In this document: positions 2,987-40,290 of the stretch, one piece after another
Layout: each line of letters starts with the position of its first letter
Numbering within the stretch: position 1 is the first letter of the stretch
Assembly: GCA_900073065.1 (NCBI GenBank)
Contig: FJOG01000001.1
Coordinates: forward strand, 2,980,366-3,044,365
Source: Phialocephala subalpina
Lineage: Eukaryota > Ascomycota > Leotiomycetes > Helotiales > Mollisiaceae
Reading direction: 5' to 3'
Length of the DNA: 64,000 nt
Made by a program: the position numbers and the translations under genes
Notes under the pieces: generated by a model
Database searches by the model: none
What the model was told of the DNA's origin: nothing
The model's input: the letters and a program-made list of their open reading frames with translations, nothing else

Positions 2987-3486
2987 ATGTTGAGTTGTAC
3001 AAACATAGTAGCCGTTCACAACAAAGAACGTGCATACGAAGCCCTGACAAAATACAGTAGAGTCGCTGCTGATCTTCAATGCTTTTGGCTTATCATATCT
3101 GAATGCTTATAGGATTCTCTTGATGTGCACCGCTAGGAAAATGTGGCTTTGAACTTGGCTTCATAGTAGTTGATTGAAGAAGGAAAAGAACAGTAAGAAT
3201 ATAGATATGACGACGCGTTGGCATTGGGATTAATGAATGTTGAGTTGTACAAACATAGTAGCCGTTCACAACAAAGAACGTGCATACGAAGCCCTGACAA
3301 AATACAGTAGAGTCGCTGCTGATCTTCAATGCTTTTGGCTTATCATATCTGAATGCTTATAGGATTCTCTTGATGTGCACCGCTAGGAAAATGTGGCTTT
3401 GAACTTGGCTTCATAGTAGTTGATTGAAGAAGGAAAAGAACAGTAAGAATATAGATATGACGACGCGTTGGCATTGGGATTAATGA
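2987..3486. repeat. Exact 250-bp tandem duplication (2 copies)
   Basis: The 250 bases at 2987-3236 are repeated at 3237-3486 with no mismatch that I can find; both copies begin atgttgagttgtac and end gggattaatga. There is no gene inside. A second exact tandem duplication with the same period lies at 6031-6530, so this may be an assembly artefact tied to read length rather than biology. Confidence 0.95.
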
Positions 3487-3592
3487 AAATCAATGCTACA
3501 AGCTCATTGTCCTAGCAAAGATCAGAAACATTATTGGTGCTTTCAATCTCCAAACGCGGCTTGAACGTTCTCCGTAACTGGCCTATTATATT

Positions 3593-4032: not shown

Positions 4033-7000
4033 ATGGCCAATATCCAAAGAAACGTGATTATCCTAGTCGATGAAACAAACTGGGACGATTTCCTGGAATC
4101 CACTAAAGCCACTACTATAAAGGAAAACATCTAAAAATACATGGACCCTAGAGTATCTACAGAGGAAGTTCCGGTCTTAGACCATAACGAACCAACTAAG
4201 TCAAAACTCTCGGAATTCCATGTCTCAATCCTAGTCCCAGCAATTGGTAATATAATAGCAATTACACGACCTACCAAATACTCAGATCTTAACGAAAACG
4301 AGAGAGAAACTTTGCGTTAAGAGATAAGTAATTATAACTACCGAAAGAAACTCTAAAATAACTAACGGCTAACTCTTAGCGGCATGCGAAAGCATATTTA
4401 TAGTACTATAAATAGAAACAACTAAATATACTGCGAAAACTGTAAAGACCCACATGAGATAATGCTCAACTTATAATAGGAATTTGCCCCTATAAAACAA
4501 GCACGGGAATAGCAAATCACTACCTCATAGAATAGACTAACTACAACTACTAAGAACTCAATAGACATAGATACGACCCTCAAGTAGTGGCGTACTATCC
4601 ACGACAAAAAGAAGAAAATCAAGTACCCTAATATAACCGGTAATCGACTTCACTATAAATTCTTGACTTTAGTTCGAGATATTACACCCGACTTTACTAG
4701 TCTCGAGCTTTCCAAACTACTAGACGAAGATAGACTACCTTCTACTGATTTTAAAACACTCCTTCGCAAATATCATAACTAGAGACGCTATAACGTAAAA
4801 CTAGTACGCGGAAGACACAATGCGTTTACCGCAACTTAAGATTAAGACGACTCTCCCCAATTAGTAACGCTTAACAGTCGAGACGCCTCAAAGAGACCTA
4901 TAAGTCTTTGTATTTGCAGAGACATCCACCGGTACGAAAATTGCCCATATATTATCGACGCAAAGTAACCTCGGGAGTAAAAGCCAAATTCGGAGAAGCA
5001 AAAACTAATCGAGGAAACGTGCGAGAACAATCGAAAGATTACTAGAAAAGTTAAATTTCTTCGCAAACGGAATAACAAAACGGCAAATAGTAACAACAAC
5101 GCTAATAATAGCTCTAAAACAAGTAAAAGCAAACTACCACTCTTAATCGACGTAAATCCGAGGAGAAATTATACTGTTTATAATGTTAGCACCTCGAATA
5201 TAAATATTAACGATTTTCTCGGGACGGAGAAACTTACTACCAAGCCAATAAATACACGGTTTTCTGCCAAATTCGACGCTAATAAGCTAAACGAGCCAAT
5301 TACCACGTCGCTTTCTACCACTCCTAACAAACTCGAAAACATCATAATTCCAACCGATGCGGCACTCTAATACTCTCTCCATGCGGCATTCCCAATCACA
5401 TAACGCGACTATAAGCTTAAGAACAGTTTTATTTTAAACTCTAAATCAACGATTTATATTTGCAACAACTATAAACGATTTAGCGTCTTTTGGCCCGCCG
5501 GGATTAATAAAGTAATTTATACCGGCAATAAAGAAGTGGCCATCTTAAAATATAACACTATTATTATTGTCATAAAGTGCCCTAGTTTCCCTCGTGGCAA
5601 GCCTATTACGTTTAAGAACGTGGCGTATTATCCTAGTTTCTAGATTAATATTATCTCCCTATAATACTTAGTGCGCTAAAGAACCCATTGAGACATTAAG
5701 CACCTAGTTCTTAAAGAGAATAAATGCATAATCTACTATATTCCTTTTCGCTATAGGCAATATACACTCGAGTATAACCCTCTAAATCACGAACAAGTTG
5801 TTAACGCTACTTAAAACTCTCATAAACCCTTTAATCAAGCCATAAGCACTACTAAGGACTAGTATAAGCGTCTTGGATATCTCTACTACGAAGCAATTAA
5901 CCACCTCGAAATAAACACCCGCGGAGCCAAAATTATTACGAATTACGATTAAAGCTATATTTGCGAGACTTATAGACTCGGAAACGCCAAAGAGATTATT
6001 TCTAAACGCCCTTATACTCGCAGTAACCGACTATTTCATACTTTTTGCGTAGACTAAGTTTATATAACAAAAGGACTTAATAATAAAAGCAAAATGATAT
6101 ACACGCATTATAATTTCTATTATATGCACTTTATTTTTGCGCTACCTAACCTCAAATAATCTACTATTATAACTACTCTCAAATAGTTAATCAAATATAT
6201 CAAAAGAAGATAGGGATTTACGGTCGTAATCATCAAAATAAACGGACAAACCGATTTTAAAGAATAATAGACTACATTGACTATTTCATACTTTTTGCGT
6301 AGACTAAGTTTATATAACAAAAGGACTTAATAATAAAAGCAAAATGATATACACGCATTATAATTTCTATTATATGCACTTTATTTTTGCGCTACCTAAC
6401 CTCAAATAATCTACTATTATAACTACTCTCAAATAGTTAATCAAATATATCAAAAGAAGATAGGGATTTACGGTCGTAATCATCAAAATAAACGGACAAA
6501 CCGATTTTAAAGAATAATAGACTACATTGACCCAAAGCCAATCATTACTTATTTACGAGCCTATGATTGTAAAGCGTTTCCACTAAAGAAAAACCTCCCA
6601 AAACTCGACAAATTAAAAGCATGTACTTAAATTAATTAGCTAATTAACTATAAAAGAACAAACATTTTCCTCATATGAGTTCCACTCCTACGACGAGTAA
6701 TTGCTACGCGCGACGTTACGTTCGACGAGTCTTCTTTCTATGACCCAAAGGACGAGACCACTCTCACGGAAATCGAGACTCTACAGCTAGTCGAAATTAT
6801 AGAGCTAACAGATATTCCCGAGGTTAACTACGACGACTTCATCCCAAAGCCTCTTAAAGTAAAAGCAGAATACGAACGCTCAATCGACGCTCCCAGTAAT
6901 ACTATCGTTATCAAAGACACCTCTAAAATACAGCAACCTTAACAGCTCAAAACCCCAGAGCCTACGCCAGAGTCTACACTAAAGCCTACGCAATTTCCGG

Positions 7001-24562: not shown

Positions 24563-24976
24563 GCTTGGCTTTAATACCTGAGGCATCGATACAGAATCGA
24601 TTCTCGCTAGTATTAATTAGGTATCGCGAGAATCGATTTTATCGCTATTATATCGATTCTCTTTATATTTAAACCCTTTTTTAACTATTTACTTTAATTA
24701 TTACTTTTTATAATTTTTTTTATATAAAATTGCTAATTTATAATAAGAATAATAATTTTTTTATTTCAAAGTAAAAGAAATTAATAAATTAATAAAATAT
24801 TTAATTATTTAAATTTTAACTCGTATTTATCTCGTATTCGTATAAAGCCCGAAGTACCGCTCTCGTCAAAGGCCCCAATTTTAAGCCGAGAATCGATGCT
24901 AGATCGAAAGAATCAACTCCTAACGATTTTGGCATCGATTCTTATCGATACCGCTTATCGGGTATTAAAGCCAAGC
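24563..24976. mobile_element. Non-autonomous inverted-repeat element (MITE-like), AT-rich core
   Basis: 414 bp bounded by inverted repeats: left gcttggctttaatacc(t)ga, right (tc)gggtattaaagccaagc. More inverted similarity lies inside (gcatcgatacagaatcgatt against aatcgatgcc with gaatcgat blocks). The core is very AT-rich and codes for nothing. This fits a short DNA-transposon derivative hit by RIP. I cannot identify a clean target-site duplication. Its right end directly abuts the start of similarity to the 38-39.7 kb H3-like locus. Confidence 0.6.
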
Positions 24977-25024
24977 TTAGATCGCGTTTCTTGTTTATCT
25001 TCTCTTTTTCTTCTCTACCGCATC

Positions 25025-25822
25025 ATGTACGTGAATAACGCCGCTCTCGAGTTGCTTAGCATAAGCTAACTTATTTATAGCAATATTTTGATAGATTATC
25101 GTCGGTTTCTGTAAGTATATTCCCTCCACTTGTCCCTCTGCCATTTGTCATGGTCCCATGCACCAAATGGGCTCCCAGAGACAGAGCCTCAGTTAGCTGT
25201 CATCTGCAGCAGCTATCGATGGTTGTTACTCTTTGCTAACGTATATATAGGCTACTACAACTTCATAGCTGTTCTATAAGCACCCCCAAACACCCATCCC
25301 TTTCGATTCTCGAGTCTACCACGGTCGCATCTATCAACACGCGTCGAATCCATCGGCCATCGGCCATCCACAATGTTCCATCAGCCTCCCTCCATCATTC
25401 TTCGGCACTCCGTTGGTATAGCCATATACTAACGTATTTGACTGACTTTTTGGCTGTTAGAATTGTACGATATCATGCCTGTAAGATCCCTAGGGCTACA
25501 ATACCACATTATTCCATGATTGCACGTACAATGTACTGTGTAATAGTAGCTGGCGTAGTATATGTAGAACAGACGTAGAACCTCCAACGGTGTCTTTTGT
25601 AAGTCTTTACTCCTGTTTTGACTTTCCCAAGTCATTTCCGAGACGTACATGGCTAATGTCTTTCCAGCGGAGGCCGGTACCAGCTCCCAGGACTCACCGA
25701 ATGCCAATTTGACCGATGGATTGCCATTTCTCTCGTCCCTTTTGGATGTCCCGCCAAAGCTGGGAGATTGGAGATACTGTCTTGTTACTCCAAGGATGAG
25801 AGGTACCATGATGCCTCGTTGA
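25025..25822 (+). pseudogene. H3-like gene copy 1: histone-fold exon deleted
   Basis: Second copy, in opposite orientation, of the gene at 38068-39495. Corresponding exons on the plus strand: 25373-25415 ([10 protein letters not shown]), 25461-25480, 25568-25598 and 25668-25822; the last three read NRRRTSNGVFSEAGT across their junction, close to [15 protein letters not shown] in the other copy. The 165-nt exon that encodes the histone fold is missing. The break joins the intron before it to the intron after it (around 25440), leaving one 45-nt intron. The missing exon is a whole number of codons with equal phases, so the frame stays open: 82 codons to TGA at 25820-25822. Exons for the membrane tail are also missing, and the end is read from a different repeat. 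An upstream small exon pair (25025-25030, 25081-25110) may be 5' sequence. Confidence 0.65.
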
Positions 25823-26480
25823 GCTTTGCCGAATGCTGGGTAGCAGCTCAGCTCAATTCAGCTCCATGTATAACAGCCTTTCCAATTGTCCTTCGGAGTT
25901 GAGGTCATCAAAGAGAAGCTTTGCCTCAACTTCCACTTATGTTACTGGGCTCTCGGAATTTGATTGGGCTTTATAGATAGTGTACAAACAATCTCAACCT
26001 TCGTTCTCCATGACCCTTTCAAGCTTACCGTATCACTTTGGTCTATGAATTTCTGCTGTCTTGTTGTTCCGAGAAAGCTAGGACATTCCGAAATCCCTCG
26101 AATGCAGAAAGCTTGCACATCTAGCGGTGTGGTAGACGCATGTCCGTCGTCGGGCAGGGCACAAGCTTCATTTGAAAGGACTTCAATCATACGCTTCTGA
26201 TTCTTCTGATGTTCTAGGAATCCTGGGATATTCAAAACTCATCTGCTGGCCATATTTCTACTTGGACGACTCCATCAGGTGAGATAATTACATGCCCAGA
26301 TTCAGAGGCTCTAGGTTGAAATTTCGAAGTCCCAGGAGCTCTTGAGTATCCTTGAAGCTATGTCACTTGGTAAATGAAGAAGCGTACGAGACTTCAAGAA
26401 TAATTTGGGAATGTGCCTGGGGGTGCCCTCGAATTCTTGCTCTGGATGTTCCGGGATCCATGGGTGATTTAAAGGGCGAA
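25735..26480. repeat. Inverted copy of segments at 34.9-37.1 kb
   Basis: Reverse-complement similarity to three ordered blocks. 25735-25880 matches 36890-37050 (shared cccgccaaagctgggagatt). 25940-26235 matches about 35170-35500 (shared tagaccaaagtg). 26370-26480 matches about 34930-35050 at protein level (ETSR..., then L.D-PGS-G-LK). With the two H3-like copies this makes a collinear inverted duplication. The blocks are diverged and have indels. Confidence 0.7.
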
Positions 26481-27799
26481 TTTTGGGGTCACTATATGGA
26501 ACTGCTTCCATATACTGTTGCTTTGCAGATCATCGATTCTACGGGCACTCACACTTGGAACAGACCACAATGTATTAATCTCAAACTCTGACCCCACAAT
26601 GTTCCAGCGTTCTTCGGATCATCGAAAGACATGCTCACGTACCAAGCCTTGAGATTGATACATTGTGGTCTGTTCCAAGTGGAAGTTTACCCGGAACCTT
26701 GTTTGCGATATGGATGGATGGAGTATGGAGTGTTTATTCACGATCAGGACAATTCACGATTGATGTGGCGCAGATATCTTGAAATATTAGATGTTTTTAG
26801 ACCTTCTCACGAGTTGAAGAAGAAAGCCTTTTGATAATGCATGTTGAGGTACTTGCATTCCCTTTCGCCTCGCCGTCGATTTCTCCTGGAACGAGATAGC
26901 TTCTCCCAACCTGCTTTGCTGAAGAAGAAGATCTTCTGCGTCTTCTGGGATGAGATAGCTTTTCCAAGCTCTTTTACAATGGTATTTCCTCTGAGAGTTT
27001 CTATGAACCAAGTCAAGGTTGCGTCAATAAGCCAGTCGTCGCAATTATAAGTCTATGTTATGGCAGGCATATCAAGCTTCCCCCCAAGCTTCTCTCCAGA
27101 TTTTCGAGCACAGATGCACAGCGACGAAGCTCGCTGTGTTTCCAGGACGTCTTCACCTCAACATCGCCACGTAGAGAATCATGACTTCATTTCTTTACTT
27201 CACTTCTTTATTCGAGCAAAATGATTCTTATTTATTGCAATTGGATGATATCCTTTTCGACGCCCTAGCTTTCGCTGGACTTTTACAGAATAATATGCCC
27301 CACTGAGAATAGTCGCCGGAACCATAGTCTCACCAGGGCCTTGACATAGTCCAATCAAGGTGGGGAGTTCCAGGTATGTACGTGAAGGTGGTTGAAAGTA
27401 CTGAAGCTGTCGTTCCTGGATTTGGTTTTAGGGTGCCCAGAGGCCTGGTATCATGACAGATGAGACGCATGTAGTTCGCCATTATGAGAATAAATGCTTG
27501 ACGACTGTTGTGTCCACTCGGAAAATGCGTGAGGATGATTGATCCGAGAAAGGGTTCGCTTGAGACCCACACGGCAAGGCGGAGAAGGGAGCGGAGGTGG
27601 GGGCGGAAAATGCGGGGTAGAGCGGGGTTAACACGATGGATGCAGAAACAATTCGAAAAGGTTTTTGTAGCATTATAGACTATGAATTAAAGGCTCGGCC
27701 GTCTCTATCAAGAAATATTATCTTCAAAAGGTGATACTCATTAAGAATATAAGAAAGAAGCGAATGTTTTGTATAATCCATCTGCAAATAACTCGTCCC
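26481..27799. other. Gene-poor spacer with relics
   Basis: No intact gene. Sequence near 26530-26680 repeats itself in inverted form (cacacttggaacagaccacaat, then attgtggtctgttccaagtgg at about 26655), giving a roughly 20-bp inverted pair around 100 bp apart. The rest is unrecognised. Confidence 0.4.
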
Positions 27800-32700: not shown

Positions 32701-33989
32701 ACTTTTCCTCCTCATTTCCTCCACATCACGAGCGTTGTCTGTTGTCATTATGCCTTGTCACCATTTTGTTGAATGTGGCAATACAGAAGGAGATAGTTCC
32801 AGCCGTGTCATTGATTGAGGTTCGTGAACTTCATGATCTGATGTCGACAGTCCTGTGAAGCCGCATATCGGGTTTGCCAAGACTTACTCGGGGGAAGCGA
32901 GCATAAGCGAAACACACGATTTTACCCCTATCGGCATATTTCAGAGGTTTGGTTGGGGGATATGCATAGCGGAACTACTCTTTGACTCTCAAAACCGGTG
33001 TCCATTTCTCGGGTACCTGTCAGTGATACCTTAATGTAACCGTCCTAATGGTTCATTGATACGAAGTGTAGGAAAGGATAATCTTACATGTAGTGAAGTG
33101 CGGGTTAGGTGCTGACTTTCCTATTACATAAACCTAACCTGGAAAGGATAATCAAAGGATTGAGCTGAGACGAGTTGCTATAATACATTCATCAAACCGT
33201 TAATGAGGCATTATAATACGTTTCAAAGCTGGAGGCGTAAAACAGCCTCTATAATCTCCCAGCTCTGACAGGACAATTAAAGTGGACAAGTTGGGCTGGA
33301 TTTAGCTATGGTAAGTACTAATAAATAGTCTTTATGTAATAACATCGTCGTCAAGCTGATCCTTGCTGGGGGAACTCCGGAACATAACGCTACAAGATTC
33401 CCGTAAGGTCGGGACATCTAACAGGCAGTCCCAAACTTGCAAATAGGGATTTACTTGAAAAATTAGAGTAGAAGTCATTGAATGAGCTTAGCTTGCGCAA
33501 ATCTCGTGAACATAATAAAAACTTGGATCGTTGTGAGCCCCTTCCCAGACTACTAGCCAACAGCATCTTACGATGTACCGACATCGCTGGAACATATGGA
33601 AATCTTTCAGGTCAATTCATGCTCTAGTGCACAACTACCAGAATTTCATCCAGAAAATTGCTGACGCTGAAGATTCCATGTCAAGACACCATTACCGATC
33701 TCAAATTGCTGTCTAAACGCCTCTGGAATCTCCCGAATTCCTTGGGACAACCAAATCAACAAAGGGGTGTAATGCGAAAAGTAAGGGCAGCGGTATGATC
33801 GGGCATTGAACACCGATCTATTGATTATCGTTCGTCTGTTACCTTCAGAGCAAGACTCTGGGCCAGGTTGTATCAAAAGAACTGGTGCTTTCGAACCTCT
33901 CTCAAAGCTAAAGGTTGAGGCTATGGGAACCTTTGCCACGCGTCCAGGCGCAATGATTCGCTTTAAATGTCGAATGTGAATGTTGTAAA
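29783..33989. other. Gene-poor region with degenerate duplicated segments
   Basis: No gene that I can support. A block at about 33020-33330 (cctaatggttcattgatacgaag...; ataatctcccagctctgacaggacaatt) is a degenerate direct copy of about 36770-37030, so this repeat family has at least three members here (also 25735-25880 inverted). Remaining open frames are short and without motifs. Confidence 0.45.
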
Positions 33990-34160: not shown

Positions 34161-37100
34161 GAGGCGAAGAAGAGGAGATTATGGAAGAAAGAAATGATTT
34201 AGAGATTTGGCGTAAACGGATGTCTTAGTAATTTTGTTGCCGTGCAGGACGGGAGTCTCGGAAAGGTGTGAACTCGTAAAATCGAAGGAGTGTAGACTCG
34301 CAGGAAGCAGGATTGTGAAAGAGTAGGAAGCTTCAAGGAACTATCTTGAATTCGCATTGAAGCGTGCCGGCTTCAATCTCGAAGCTCCGACTTTGAATGA
34401 CACTGAAGACTTTGTTGTAGTACCAGTGAGCCTAAAACAGGGAACTACAACTGAGAAGCGATCTCTAGCCTCTTACGGAAGTCAGACGTGTGTGTGGTAG
34501 TAAAATATTGCTTGATTCAGGGTTCAGGTTGGAGATGGTTTGGTCGTCAGGTACAGTAGCTATCTTTCTGCAACACGTCAAAGACAGGCCAAGCACTTGA
34601 AAACACACTAATGGGATGAATGTTGCAATAACACATGAATGGGTGAAATAACAGAAGTCGGCTCAAGAACAACAAACGAACACTTCGAGTGAAAAGATTT
34701 CACCTCAGAGACATGTTCCAGAATTTGCATCAGTGTGGAGGTGCCAGGTTTCCTAGGCCTCTCGGATTTTGGAGGATGACTGTAGCCACTATTCGTTGCT
34801 CTCCAGGACATGGAGCCTGCTCTTAGGGTTGAGAAATTAGACAGACAGAGATGCATTGAGAATGTTGGGAAGTTATATTCTGAGAAAAGCAACACTATGT
34901 GGAAGCAGTTCCATGTCGTGACCCAAAGTGCCTTCAAATTACCCAGGGAACCCGGATCATCCAGGAGCCAGGATTCGAAAGCATCCCAAACCCCCTTCAC
35001 GCACATACCCAAATCCATTCTTGAAGTCTCGCCTGTTTCTTCACGCGTTTGCAAAGTGACATTGCTTCAAAAGTTTGACTGCGGGATACTCCAGACTTTC
35101 TGGAACCTCAAAAGGTCAGCGTAGAGTCTTTGAATCTAGGCATGTAGTTATTTCACCTGGTGGAGTCATCCAAGTAAAAAGGTGCCAGCAGTTGGGTTTT
35201 GATGTCCCTAAATTCCTAGAACGTCAGAAAAACCAGAAGTGCATCATTCAAGCCCATTGAAACCAGGGTTGTGCCCTATGAGAGACATGCGGCTGCCAAA
35301 CCCCTCGTTGTCTAAGCTTTCTGCATTCGCGAGATTTCAGAATGTCCTACCTTCCTCGGAACAAGAATACGGTAGGAGAAAATAGACCAAAGTGGTATTC
35401 GCCGAGTTTGCGAAGGCCATGCAGAATAAGGGTTGATATTGTTTCCACGTCGTCCTTAGAGCTCGATCAAATTCTGGGAATCTGGTATCACAAGACTCAG
35501 GATGGGCAAGCTTTCGCTTTCATGACCCAACTCGAAAGGACATTGAAACCGCTATTATTCTGAACAACCAAGTTTATCAGTCTGCAGAATACATTTATTG
35601 CGATGCGGGCCGGGAAAGCCCAACCACATGTGCAGATCTCGCTTAGACCCAGAACGCGCCCCTTTTTACTTTTGATGTTGTATTAATGCACAAAGGTCTT
35701 AAAGCTTACTACTATATTGTAGGTCGGAATCTACGAAAAGCTAGGAGACATTGGAAGGGAAAGCTTAAATTGATCGGGAGGGCGTTCCTCTTGCCTTCGA
35801 TTGAAAATCCACGAGGATTAATCTAAAATAATTACTCTATCATGTGAATGATTCCCTCGTTTCCAGCACCGATGTCCTGTAGATAGTCCGCCATTCTATT
35901 TTGAGTCTGGGGCTGATCAGTAGGAGATTAAGTCCGTACTTTTACTTCTGCTTAGTTCTGAACCTCTTCCGAGGAAGCTGGAGAGGATGGCCTTTGTCGC
36001 AGAGATTGCGGAGTGTCCCAACCTTCGCGAGACAACGAAACCTCCAAAACGGGTAGATGATTAGACGCTTGTACTCAGTTGTGTGTCAAAATACGATCAA
36101 ATTCGGTCTCCTTGACCTTGCTTCCTTTTATTGAAACGTTTCTCAATTGAAGCCAAATCGCAAATGAAGTACTTGGTTGAGGTATTCTGATCCCTGAACT
36201 CACACGAAATATGTGTCCGATCACCTAGAGATTCTGGAAGATTCAAGACTCGAAGTTTGGGGCACCTCCACTTGTGGTAACCCCATTTATGTCTCAAAAA
36301 TAGGAACCAGCTTAAGGTATACAAAGACAACATTCAAGAAGTATTGACCATCAAAAAAGGAGACCTATAAGTAGTAGAAATGCACCGTTCTAAATGCGTT
36401 TTCTAACACTTGTATCACCTTTAGACCGAGGAAATTGAAAGGCCATCCTAACACTCCCCCAAAAACCGTGGTAATGACCGAGGTGGACGATGAGGACGAG
36501 GATGCAGAATTAAATTAATGAGAATGCCTCGTTAAGCGAACTCGAGGGTTACAAATTTCTAACTTTCCGGGCCTGCGTCGCCGCCAATCTTCATCCGAAT
36601 GGCATACAAACAGGAGGCGTAAAGGTATAAGTCTTGAAAGAAGTATACTACAGTTAAACGTTCCATTCTCAAATGCATCCATCACGAGGAACGAGCAACG
36701 TTGTGAGATTGTACCAAATCTAAGGGGACATTGGAAGAGACCTACCATAAAATGGGAACAAAATATTTGATACGTCGGAGTGATAGTCCTAACGTTGATT
36801 TAATACGAAGTGGGGAAAAAGGAAATTTTGAAATGAGTCCTCAACCTTTCCTTTCAATGTTCCAGAGTCCAAAGGACAATCAAGAAGGGTATGCTGAGCC
36901 TAGTTGAGTCACTACCCTGCATTCAGCAAAACCGCAACGAGGCATCATATTACCTCTCATACCTGGAGTTACAAGGTACCCTATCCAATCTCCCAGCTTT
37001 GGCGGGACAATCAAAGAGGACGGGTGTGCTGAGCTGAGCTGTGGCACCGCATTCAACAAAGCATCGTCATGCCAGCCAACGCCAAGCTTGTTCTTCTATA

Positions 37101-37380
37101 GAGAGATAGAGTACGATTTGGCCAGAAATAGCAATCTCTTGGCCAAATCGACATTTGGTGAGTGCTAGGAGCTTCTAACTATACTGACATTAGCTGGAAA
37201 CATTTTAGGCATATACGTCTCGAGCGTAAGTAGTCTTGGAAAGATATAGTGGCAAAGGAATATAAGGAGCCGCACACCCGGCCTACCATACGATTTTCAC
37301 CTCAATCCCCGCTCCTCGCCTTCTGCCTAGGGTGGTGCAGTCGCTGGTCTCGAAGGAAATTGATGCTTTGACCGTTGAGA
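34161..37380. other. Gene-poor region; partner of the inverted duplication
   Basis: It contains the blocks matching 25735-26480 in reverse orientation (about 34930-35050, 35170-35500 and 36890-37050). Short translated pieces on the minus strand such as CPKLRVLNLPESLGD (about 36230-36280) and DDPGSLGNLK (about 34930-34960) look like leucine-rich-repeat or F-box-type relics. No intact gene. Confidence 0.45.
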
Positions 37381-38000
37381 TCGCTTAGCAAGGTATTTCG
37401 AAAAAAATACCCTTGGATTATTTATTTCCAAATTCTATAACCTTTTAACCACGCTATATATAATGTGGTTATAAAGTAAATTAAATGTCTTTAAAGTTTT
37501 AGATACTAAGGATTAATTATATAAAAAAAATTAAAATACGAAACTTATTAAAATAAATATATTTTAATTTTAAATTAATATTTAAATTAAAAAAATAAAT
37601 TAATAAAATTAATAAAATTAATAAAATTAATAAAATTAATAAAATTAATAAAATTAATAAAATTAATAAAATTAATAAAATTAATAAAATTAATAAAATT
37701 AATAAAATTAATAAAATTAATAAAATTAATAAAATTAATAAAATTAATAAAATGGAATATTATTTTAATTTCAAATATATTTTAATATGTAAATAATACA
37801 AAGGAATAATAAATATAAAATATAAATATAATATTAAATTAAAATATAAAATATTGAAATTATTATATATTTTATTAGTTTTCGAATATTCTTTAGAATT
37901 ATAATTAGAAATCACAAGGAATTTAAAGTTTGATTGGATAAAAACTTTGATTTAAGTTAATACTAGGCTATTCCTAGTTTCGTATTCTATTTATATTGTT
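37381..38000. repeat. AT-rich tract with 9-bp minisatellite
   Basis: Very AT-rich. From about 37600 to 37753 the unit taataaaat is repeated without visible variation roughly 17 times. The tract borders the 3' end of the H3-like gene. Confidence 0.9.
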
Positions 38001-38067
38001 TGTAAGCCTATTATCGGATGAAAACCCTATAAAAAACCCCCAAAAAACCGAAAAAAAAACCAAATCC

Positions 38068-39495
38068 TCAATTACCAAAGAAAGAATCAATGGCTTTACA
38101 AGCCGCATGCTTGAATACCAAACCAGCAATTCCAAAAACAAACAAAATGCCTATGGCAATTGGGAACTTGAGGCACAGAATCGTATCCAATCGATCCAAA
38201 AACTTCATAGAAATTGTTTCGCCCTATAAATCATTAGTTTATTGAATTTCCAAAAGAGGAAATTGCAAAATAAACTTACCCGATTACAAGTAGTATCTAC
38301 CATGGTTGCAATCTAAAGAAAATCAGTATATAATTGATTATTCTAATAAGAAAACCATACTTTTTCATGTGATCTTTCGATCAAATCAAGTTCTGCCTTT
38401 CTAACTGTTTTTTCGATAGTAGCTTGATACGCTGCAAGCTTCTCGTCATCAACTCGTCGCTTATAAGATCGTGTAAAGTGCTAAAAATCCATATAATTAG
38501 TTTAAAACCCTCGAAAAACATTAAAAAAACCGAAAACCTAATTGAAATCCTTAAAAACCATTCCAAACCCCGAAAATATAAATAAGCCCCTTCAAAAGGA
38601 AAAGGAAAAATAAAAATAAAAGAATATTACTTACAGGAACAATTGAGGACTCCGAGGGAGCCGGCGAGGAACGCATATCGAGTTGGGTTTCGTTCGCGAA
38701 ATTAGAGTCCTATATATATATATATTAGCCTATCGATCAATAATTCGTCGAAAAATGCGAAAAGAAAGCCTTGAAAGAAGTCAAAAAAGGCCAAAGGAGG
38801 TATCCGAAGTCCATTCCAATTGAAAATTATAGGAAAGCCGAGAATAAGGTCGATTTGAGTCGATATCGGACGAAAATCCTCGAAAAAGTCGTGCGCGACG
38901 CTGATCGGACGGAAGAAATGGAAGAAAAATACTGAAAGGGGTTCTGGGAATCGAATCGAATAGGAAAAGGGAGCTTACGATAGTGCCGGCCTCAGCTGGA
39001 AAGAAATTAGCTATGTACGTCTCAAAAAATGACTTGGGAAAGTCAAAAAGGAGTAAATGTACTTACAGAACACGCCATTTGATCGTCTTCGAGTATTCTA
39101 CATATACTATGTTAGTTATTATTACACAGTATATTGTACCTGCAATCATGGAACAATATGGTGTTGTAGCCCTAAGCATCTTACAGGCATGATGCGCACA
39201 ATTCTAACAGCCAAAAGTCAGTAAAATACTCGAAAAGTGGATAGGAATGTACTTACTGGTGTCCTCGCACAAGTTGACGAGGTAAGCCTCAACGGATTCT
39301 TGAAGAGCACCGATGGTGGAAGATTGGAATCGAAGGTCGGACTTGAAGTCTTGAGCGATCTCACGGACGACACGTTGGAAGGGGAGCTTTCGGATGAGGA
39401 GCACGGTTGACTTTTGGTATTCTATCCAAAATACGTTAGTATATGGCTATACCAACGGAGTGCCGAAGAATGATGGAGGGAGGTTGATAGAGCAT
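38068..39495 (-). CDS. H3-like histone-fold protein with C-terminal membrane helix (copy 2; possibly pseudogene)
   Basis: Nine proposed exons on the minus strand: 39495-39453, 39421-39253, 39203-39185, 39097-39067, 38995-38979, 38709-38635, 38480-38361, 38312-38280 and 38223-38068; 220 codons. Exon 2 encodes the histone H3 core almost unchanged ([18 protein letters not shown], then [16 protein letters not shown] and [13 protein letters not shown]). It lacks the longer loop 1 of centromeric H3. Later exons give a Ser/Pro-rich linker, a 40-residue charged helix and, in the last exon, a membrane helix ([18 protein letters not shown]) before TGA at 38068. The classical H3 tail is not found. Exon 2 has two overlapping donors, GTAAGT and, four bases on, GTACAT. 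Only the weaker one keeps frame, because exon 3 is one base shorter than in copy 1. So it is either alternatively spliced or frameshifted. The proposed first intron (31 nt) is suspiciously short. Function unknown. Confidence 0.55.
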
Positions 39496-39894: not shown

Positions 39895-40290
39895 CAAACC
39901 ATGGATAGTAGACCCGGCGGCGACAGGCTCAGCGACAGCAAATCCCTCAGCGATATGCCGACAGTAAACCCAACCGAACGACTGTAGACCATGCAGTAGC
40001 ATCCCCATCCTCCATCTCATGCGATAGGAGGCGTTGTGATGATAACCCATCATGGCGACAGCGAACTCCTCGCAGCGACAGCAGACCCATCCTAGCCACG
40101 GACGAAGATGCGGTAGCAGATCCCTTCCAGTGATGGTAAACCTTGTGACAGTAGACCCAAGCAGGGCGACTACATATGGGAACACATCGAGCCCATTTCA
40201 GCGACGGCAGACCATGCGACAGCAGACGTTGTGAAAGCAGACCCATACCAACGATGTAGAGTATAAGATAGCAGACCCCTTTCTTGTTCT
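39895..40290. repeat. Degenerate tandem repeats of a gacagcagaccca-type unit
   Basis: Variants of 'gcgacagcagacccat' recur at irregular spacing (about 20-40 bp) through this stretch. They have diverged too far for an exact unit length. Confidence 0.6.

Follow-up and report, generated by a model that had tools for sequence, protein, structure and literature searches.

In the root fungus Phialocephala subalpina, we identified a locus where a piece of a histone H3 gene forms one exon of a short multi-exon reading frame that runs on into a predicted C-terminal membrane helix. Judged from its sequence, the striking DNA-level chimera is real and unusual; it is putative as a gene and is not an H3 variant. 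The chimeric gene or relic appears in the databases searched only from P. subalpina. We consider it somewhat more likely than not that the locus is a species-restricted H3-capture chimera, in which capture of an H3 fragment was followed by inverted duplication of the segment, after which copy B lost the H3 core and the reading frame of copy A decayed. All positions are in the numbering of the window, the whole stretch of 64,000 nucleotides that was analysed (2980366-3044365 of contig C51, in a genome of 68 Mb).

Copy A reads on the minus strand from 39495 to 38068 as a chain of nine exons with GT..AG introns. Its features are as follows:

39453..39495, minus strand: first exon in the initial annotation; 40 of 43 positions match copy B; unused by the public gene model PAC_00936
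39257..39421, minus strand: exon captured from H3 (part of its exon 3), 165 nt long, beginning and ending in phase 1
39185..39203, minus strand: mini-exon of 19 nt, probably the degenerate beginning of H3 exon 4; 1 nt shorter than its copy B counterpart
39067..39097, minus strand: 31-nt exon; differences between A and B mostly at third positions of the frame N.RR.SNGVF
38979..38995, minus strand: exon of 17 nt, alignable to copy B over its initial 13 nt
38635..38709, minus strand: Ser/Pro-rich exon of the orphan part
38361..38480, minus strand: charged exon of the orphan part
38280..38312, minus strand: short exon of the orphan part
38068..38223, minus strand: last exon, with the C-terminal membrane helix and stop codon
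38125..38181, minus strand: predicted membrane helix, 19 residues, mean hydropathy 2.44

Homology of the 165-nt exon to H3 is evident in both protein and DNA. A tblastn search with a typed fungal H3 placed YQKST...EDT at 39419-39255, the encoded protein is 89% identical to H3 over 55 aligned residues, and the DNA agrees with exon 3 of an intact H3 gene (near C47:2634898, next to H4) at 153 of 169 aligned positions (91%). The match begins about 30 nt into exon 3 and stops just beyond the splice donor, and this gene is the likely donor of the captured exon. No relatives of the exon were found in viral contigs at the threshold used. The genome also contains a gene that we labelled CENP-A-like in this analysis (C112) and a divergent H3-like gene with one intron (G000:C111:483511-483768, minus strand; IRALHEIQRYQSSTELLISKAAIKRVV / VDELCQDLYPPNVRCRLDPTALNALQEAAEDLLVELLEDTKLMAQHRDKSTITSRDMQLAWRF...), pieces of which are 44-48% identical to H3.

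The initial annotation described the H3 core as nearly unchanged, a wording that conceals its substitutions: the 53 codons compared with the intact gene carry five replacement changes beside 8 silent ones (dN 0.042, dS 0.25, pairwise dN/dS 0.17), and the five replaced positions are almost invariant in H3. If both branches contributed equally, 5 replacements among 13 changes would depart from neutral decay with p 0.08, and if all changes occurred on the captured copy, with p 0.004; neutral decay of the fragment is thus neither shown nor excluded by this test. In H3 numbering the exon presumably spans about Y54-T107, which we take to be alpha1, loop 1 and most of alpha2, with alphaN, the rest of alpha2 and alpha3 absent. 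Downstream of it, H3-like sequence is limited to about six decayed residues, and a complete histone fold (alphaN plus alpha1-alpha3) was not found. The H3 fold that had been claimed is therefore present only in part; the Pfam Histone match in PAC_00936 (E 9.4e-19) covers only profile positions 44-102 of 122. With about half a fold, the exon does not make an H3 variant, and lacking alphaN, alpha3 and the remainder of alpha2 it could not pair with H4 in the known manner.

The 3' end of the exon may hold a trace of the captured molecule. H3 exon 3 ends in GACA before its intron, the captured exon ends in GACACCA, and CCA comes next in the H3 transcript. A spliced H3 transcript could have been captured, the intron could have shifted, or the agreement could be chance. 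Transcript-derived capture is described for H3 carried by hAT elements in the available excerpts of a study of Pseudocercospora (PMC6710886).

The modelled frame of the whole chain is open for 217 codons when a 12-nt mini-exon (38990-38979, a trimmed form of the 17-nt exon) is included and for 213 codons when it is left out, and neither the H3 exon nor the membrane exons contain a stop in that frame. The clean C-terminal membrane segment that had been described is confirmed as a predicted helix at residues 177-195 of the 213-residue model, ending 18 residues before the C-terminus. Tail-anchored membrane proteins have a single hydrophobic helix near the C-terminus, within about 30 residues of it; the position of this helix, predicted by hydropathy alone, agrees with that definition, and a product of the chimera would probably be anchored by its tail.

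Several signals give the membrane exons a coding appearance. G+C content is 38-53% in the last four exons and 21-26% in the three introns between them. It had been noted that these exons lack stops, and this observation stands: the best spliced frame in 38000-38730 is 384 nt long, and dinucleotide shuffles of the region gave a frame as long in 0 of 300 trials, in 0 of 1000 under strict rules and in 4 of 1000 under looser rules, with donor and branch-point rules that were set after the exons were known. Among 91 control windows with G+C below 42%, one (45251, plus strand) scored 422 against 384 for the locus, and was set aside because it contains 294 N. The summed codon score of the membrane exons, referenced to 3928 codons from nine presumed genes, all of them long open frames in the window, exceeded that of all 2000 shuffles. 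By exon, two of the four score above zero, and the last (-10.4) lies above its other forward frames but below an opposite-strand frame (-3.9). The exon at 39453-39495 has no codon signal of its own (-8.0).

The membrane part has no relatives among the sequences searched. Residues 87-213 matched only PAC_00936 among 23 candidates (E up to 10, candidate length about 117-373 aa), and a second place for this part in the genome was not found. In the predicted-protein search, the best 120 of 7858 matches comprised PAC_00936 and 119 others with a Pfam histone domain, which cover at most 64% of the query. The initial annotation held that relatives carrying the two halves as separate genes would speak against it; our searches uncovered no relative for the membrane part, and none with two such genes. 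Bearing on the same point is copy B, in the same window, which has neither the H3 core nor the membrane exons.

PAC_00936 (P. subalpina, 260 aa) is the public annotation of this locus, under the name 'Core Histone H2A/H2B/H3 domain' protein. It is 100% identical to the 213-residue model over 94% of the latter and follows the same chain from the H3 exon to the membrane exons, without the 12-nt mini-exon. Its N-terminus differs (MGYHH..., ARFDRLSSVFV), starting at an ATG at 40050 and omitting the exon at 39453-39495. The nine exons originally proposed form a GT..AG chain, and from H3 to membrane, the mini-exon aside, the public model has them too; it does not have the first exon, whose intron would be 31 nt, very short for a fungus. 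An AlphaFold2 model of PAC_00936 run without an alignment had a mean pLDDT of 40 and was discarded. A DUF7320 match in the protein was dropped (16.1 bits against a cut-off of 27). The name PAC_00936 is absent from the open-licence papers searched, and neither this gene nor a membrane-anchored H3 fragment is described in the titles and abstract openings listed from the open-licence literature. Excerpts of the genome paper name an RNA-seq data set, PRJEB12610, and state that EST evidence was used and that all gene models were hand-curated (PMC5148876).

Whether the two halves form one frame depends on two small exons. The single spliced frame that had been read through to the membrane segment and stop is indeed open over 217 or 213 codons, but when the full 17-nt exon is included the H3 frame meets a stop upstream of the membrane helix. 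Since the small exon of copy A is one base shorter than that of copy B, joining H3 to the membrane exons in frame is possible only if the 17-nt exon is left out, which PAC_00936 does, or shortened to 12 nt. With a small exon of 20 nt, as in B, and the full 17-nt exon, the H3 exon, the exon at 39097-39067 and the membrane exons all fall into one frame; with the 19 nt of A, a common frame requires that the 17-nt exon be absent or reduced to 12 nt. The chimera therefore looks as though it was once one frame in which A has since lost a base.

Divergence between the copies may also record which frame was under selection. In an ungapped comparison, the exon at 39097-39067 differs from its counterpart in B (25568-25598) at 12 of 31 positions, 9 of which are third positions of the frame N.RR.SNGVF, the open frame of copy B. 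Adding the 13 aligned nucleotides of the 17-nt exon brings this to 11 of 14 differences (p 0.0007, for B's frame picked after inspecting all three). Both PAC_00936 and the nine-exon model use a different frame to connect H3 with the membrane exons, and the pattern suggests of the marked frame that it was formerly selected and is now abandoned in A. The exon also diverges far more than the adjacent introns (p 0.001; introns 86-94% identical), an excess for which the history proposed here does not account. The initial idea of a histone-derived nuclear envelope protein is not supported by these results, the fold being incomplete and the formerly selected frame a different one, and nothing that we found points to the nuclear envelope.

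These frames bear on whether one gene exists at all. The join could be an artefact of gene modelling, a decayed H3 fragment beside a separate small membrane-protein gene that begins, for example, at an ATG within 38709-38635; annotators and the initial reader alike would then have joined two units, because short exons can often be chained. PAC_00936 and the nine-exon model disagree on the N-terminus, the halves, parted by an intron of 269 nt (357 nt with the mini-exon skipped), join in frame only when the 17-nt exon is left out or shortened, and the membrane half is absent from copy B. Against this, a small exon as long as that of B, followed by the 17-nt exon, brings the H3 exon, the exon at 39097-39067 and the membrane exons into a single frame, and the genome paper, in the excerpts available, cites EST evidence and hand curation in general, though not for this gene (PMC5148876). 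We regard such an artefact as possible but rather unlikely.

A working gene, in which the H3 helices of a tail-anchored protein have taken a new role (e.g. as an interaction hairpin) and the 17-nt exon is skipped or trimmed, seems improbable to us. It would explain why the H3 and membrane exons are free of stops in the modelled frame, the low pairwise dN/dS of the H3 fragment (0.17), the codon and spliced-frame signals in the membrane exons and the identical junctions of PAC_00936. It sits poorly with the base missing from the small exon of A relative to B, with the abandonment of the frame marked by divergence at 39097-39067, with replacements at conserved H3 positions and with the lack of any relative found for the membrane part among the best 120 of 7858 matches and the 23 candidates. 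Decidedly improbable is the specific claim that, by leaving out or shortening that exon, P. subalpina produces a tail-anchored membrane protein with a captured pair of H3 helices in its exposed portion. On present sequence evidence, the locus is more likely decaying than making a product.

The history of capture is read mainly from comparison with copy B. The gene part of copy A was matched elsewhere only at 24978-25843 in a genome DNA search, which gives a lower bound on copy number. The features of B and the repeats that flank the segments it lacks are as follows:

24978..25843, plus strand: copy B, inverted paralogous segment without the H3 core and without the membrane exons
25461..25480, plus strand: 20-nt mini-exon of copy B, resembling the start of H3 exon 4
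39428..39434, minus strand: left copy of GTATTTT beside the H3-bearing segment
39223..39229, minus strand: right copy of GTATTTT; copy B has a single GTATTTG here
38974..39024, minus strand: left direct repeat of about 50 bp bracketing the membrane exons
37167..37222, minus strand: right direct repeat of about 50 bp; A is alignable to copy B again from here

BLAST with default scores aligned A and B at 39679-39519 (91%), 39511-39429 (94%), 39229-38983 (84%) and 37022-36912 (82%), and farther out at 35558-34886 against 25870-26524 (73%). Copy B lacks about 0.2 kb containing the H3 core, with an ordinary-looking 45-nt intron at that site, and 1.8 kb containing the membrane exons, which in A are bracketed by the diverged direct repeats. 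Over 48 aligned positions the left and right brackets are identical at 36, left and B at 40, and right and B at 36; the right bracket may be either old or fast-evolving, its age being uncertain from so small a sample. The 82-residue frame of copy B has no homologue that we found and no Pfam family. A weaker third copy (63%) of 36768-37044, a segment downstream of A and partly in B, lies at 33024-33311, and downstream of B is a 38-bp inverted repeat at 26547-26686 (92% complementary, 64 nt apart). A likely donor exon, symmetric phase and a recipient copy without the exon are all present, as in exon capture, whether B represents the original state or a later one.

We hypothesize that a fragment of H3, comprising the 3' part of exon 3 and the beginning of exon 4, was inserted into a small gene of several exons, where the phase of 1 at both ends of the H3 exon kept the frame. 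Downstream, the recipient would have had exons encoding a charged stretch and, at the C-terminus, a membrane helix. The segment was presumably then duplicated in inverted orientation about 14 kb away, after which copy B probably lost its H3 core by deletion between the GTATTT repeats and its membrane exons by deletion between the repeats of about 50 bp. Copy A would have kept both, its small exon now one base short. A protein made from it would be anchored in a membrane by its tail and would contain a broken pair of H3 helices, unfit for the place of H3 in the nucleosome.

Two observations suggest that capture preceded duplication. The 19-nt exon of A reads KLCAS where H3 has NLCAI, and of the window's 8284 AG sites it is the one most like the start of H3 exon 4; 24 of the 8284, A and B included, score at least as well as the 20-nt exon of B. 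Shuffles did as well in 2 of 20000 trials for A and 15 of 20000 for B. Since both copies have such an exon, the H3 core was probably in place before duplication and lost from B. Secondly, silent divergence of the captured exon from H3 (8 of about 38 sites) exceeds the non-coding divergence between A and B (32 of 382, six B positions counted twice and gaps excluded; Fisher p 0.019), as expected if capture came first.

A different order of events, which overlaps the other alternatives and which we consider unlikely, is a late insertion into A, in which the H3 core entered the 45-nt intron of a B-like gene with a 7-bp target duplication and the likeness to exon 4 is chance. The ordinary-looking intron of B at the site and the flanking GTATTTT repeat are what such an insertion would leave, and a single event would be enough for the core. 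The intron that follows the H3 exon in A also resembles the H3 intron no better than expected (15% of 2000 shuffles equal it), a poor fit to a contiguous genomic fragment. A late insertion leaves unexplained, however, why the small exons of both copies resemble exon 4 where exon 4 should be, and why H3 silent divergence is the greater. The appearance of early capture could also arise by chance, from a different H3 donor or from gene conversion between the two copies, and the polarity, loss in B against gain in A, is read from indirect tests. On balance we favour an H3-bearing ancestor with loss in B.

Capture by a selfish element had also been suggested, and there are ascomycete precedents for transposon transduplication of H3, in Pyrenophora and Pseudocercospora, in the excerpts of two published accounts (PMC3538342, PMC6710886). 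AT-rich repeat DNA lies beside the gene, a short inverted-repeat element (24563-24976) abuts copy B, and three short inverted pairs (16-22 nt, 80-88%) bracket copy A. However, a scan of ten open frames nearby detected no transposase domain, two equally long control stretches from the window contain 11 and 16 short inverted pairs of like quality, and A and B are the only copies found, as a lower bound. Neither the transposase with terminal inverted repeats nor the amplified copies expected of hAT transduplication were thus detected in the frames and sequences covered, and we consider this origin very improbable.

The element at 24563-24976 has 19-bp terminal inverted repeats (95%) and ends at most 2 bp from the start of A/B homology in copy B; its end sequence recurs on other contigs. 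The AT-rich DNA just downstream of the membrane exons contains a perfect 9-bp satellite (AAATTAATA, 17 copies) at 37597-37753, and similar AT-rich DNA was found on many contigs. Elsewhere in the window, two tandem duplications (2987-3487 and 6029-6531) of 250 bp each are 100% identical and may be assembly artefacts.

If expressed, the chimera would clearly exemplify exon capture in nature: a piece of one of the most conserved proteins of eukaryotes entered a membrane protein, and the likely donor gene, the recipient copy and the breakpoints are all visible within one genome. Were the chimeric protein made, the copy without the H3 core 14 kb away would be a natural record of the capture. Even if decaying, the locus casts doubt on a database entry named for a histone domain, and offers a dissected fungal H3 capture with no transposon found around it.

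The putative product resembles tail-anchored proteins in its predicted C-terminal helix and differs from them in that no homologue was found and its anchor is read from hydropathy. PAC_00936, the model of this very locus, is named for the histone domain though much of the fold is missing. H3L, an H3 captured in hAT elements of Pyrenophora tritici-repentis, is likewise a fungal H3 outside the histone cluster; in the excerpts of that account, the element has ESTs and a chimeric protein, and H3L is an open frame of its own inside a hAT transposon present in tens of copies (PMC3538342). The P. subalpina fragment is instead a single exon within a local gene, for which two copies and no transposase were found. 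The hAT-carried H3 copies of Pseudocercospora fijiensis and relatives are also captured H3 in an AT-rich setting, mostly truncated, and are described in excerpts of that study as hundreds of transcript-derived copies inactivated by RIP (PMC6710886), whereas P. subalpina has one stop-free H3 exon within a short multi-exon frame.
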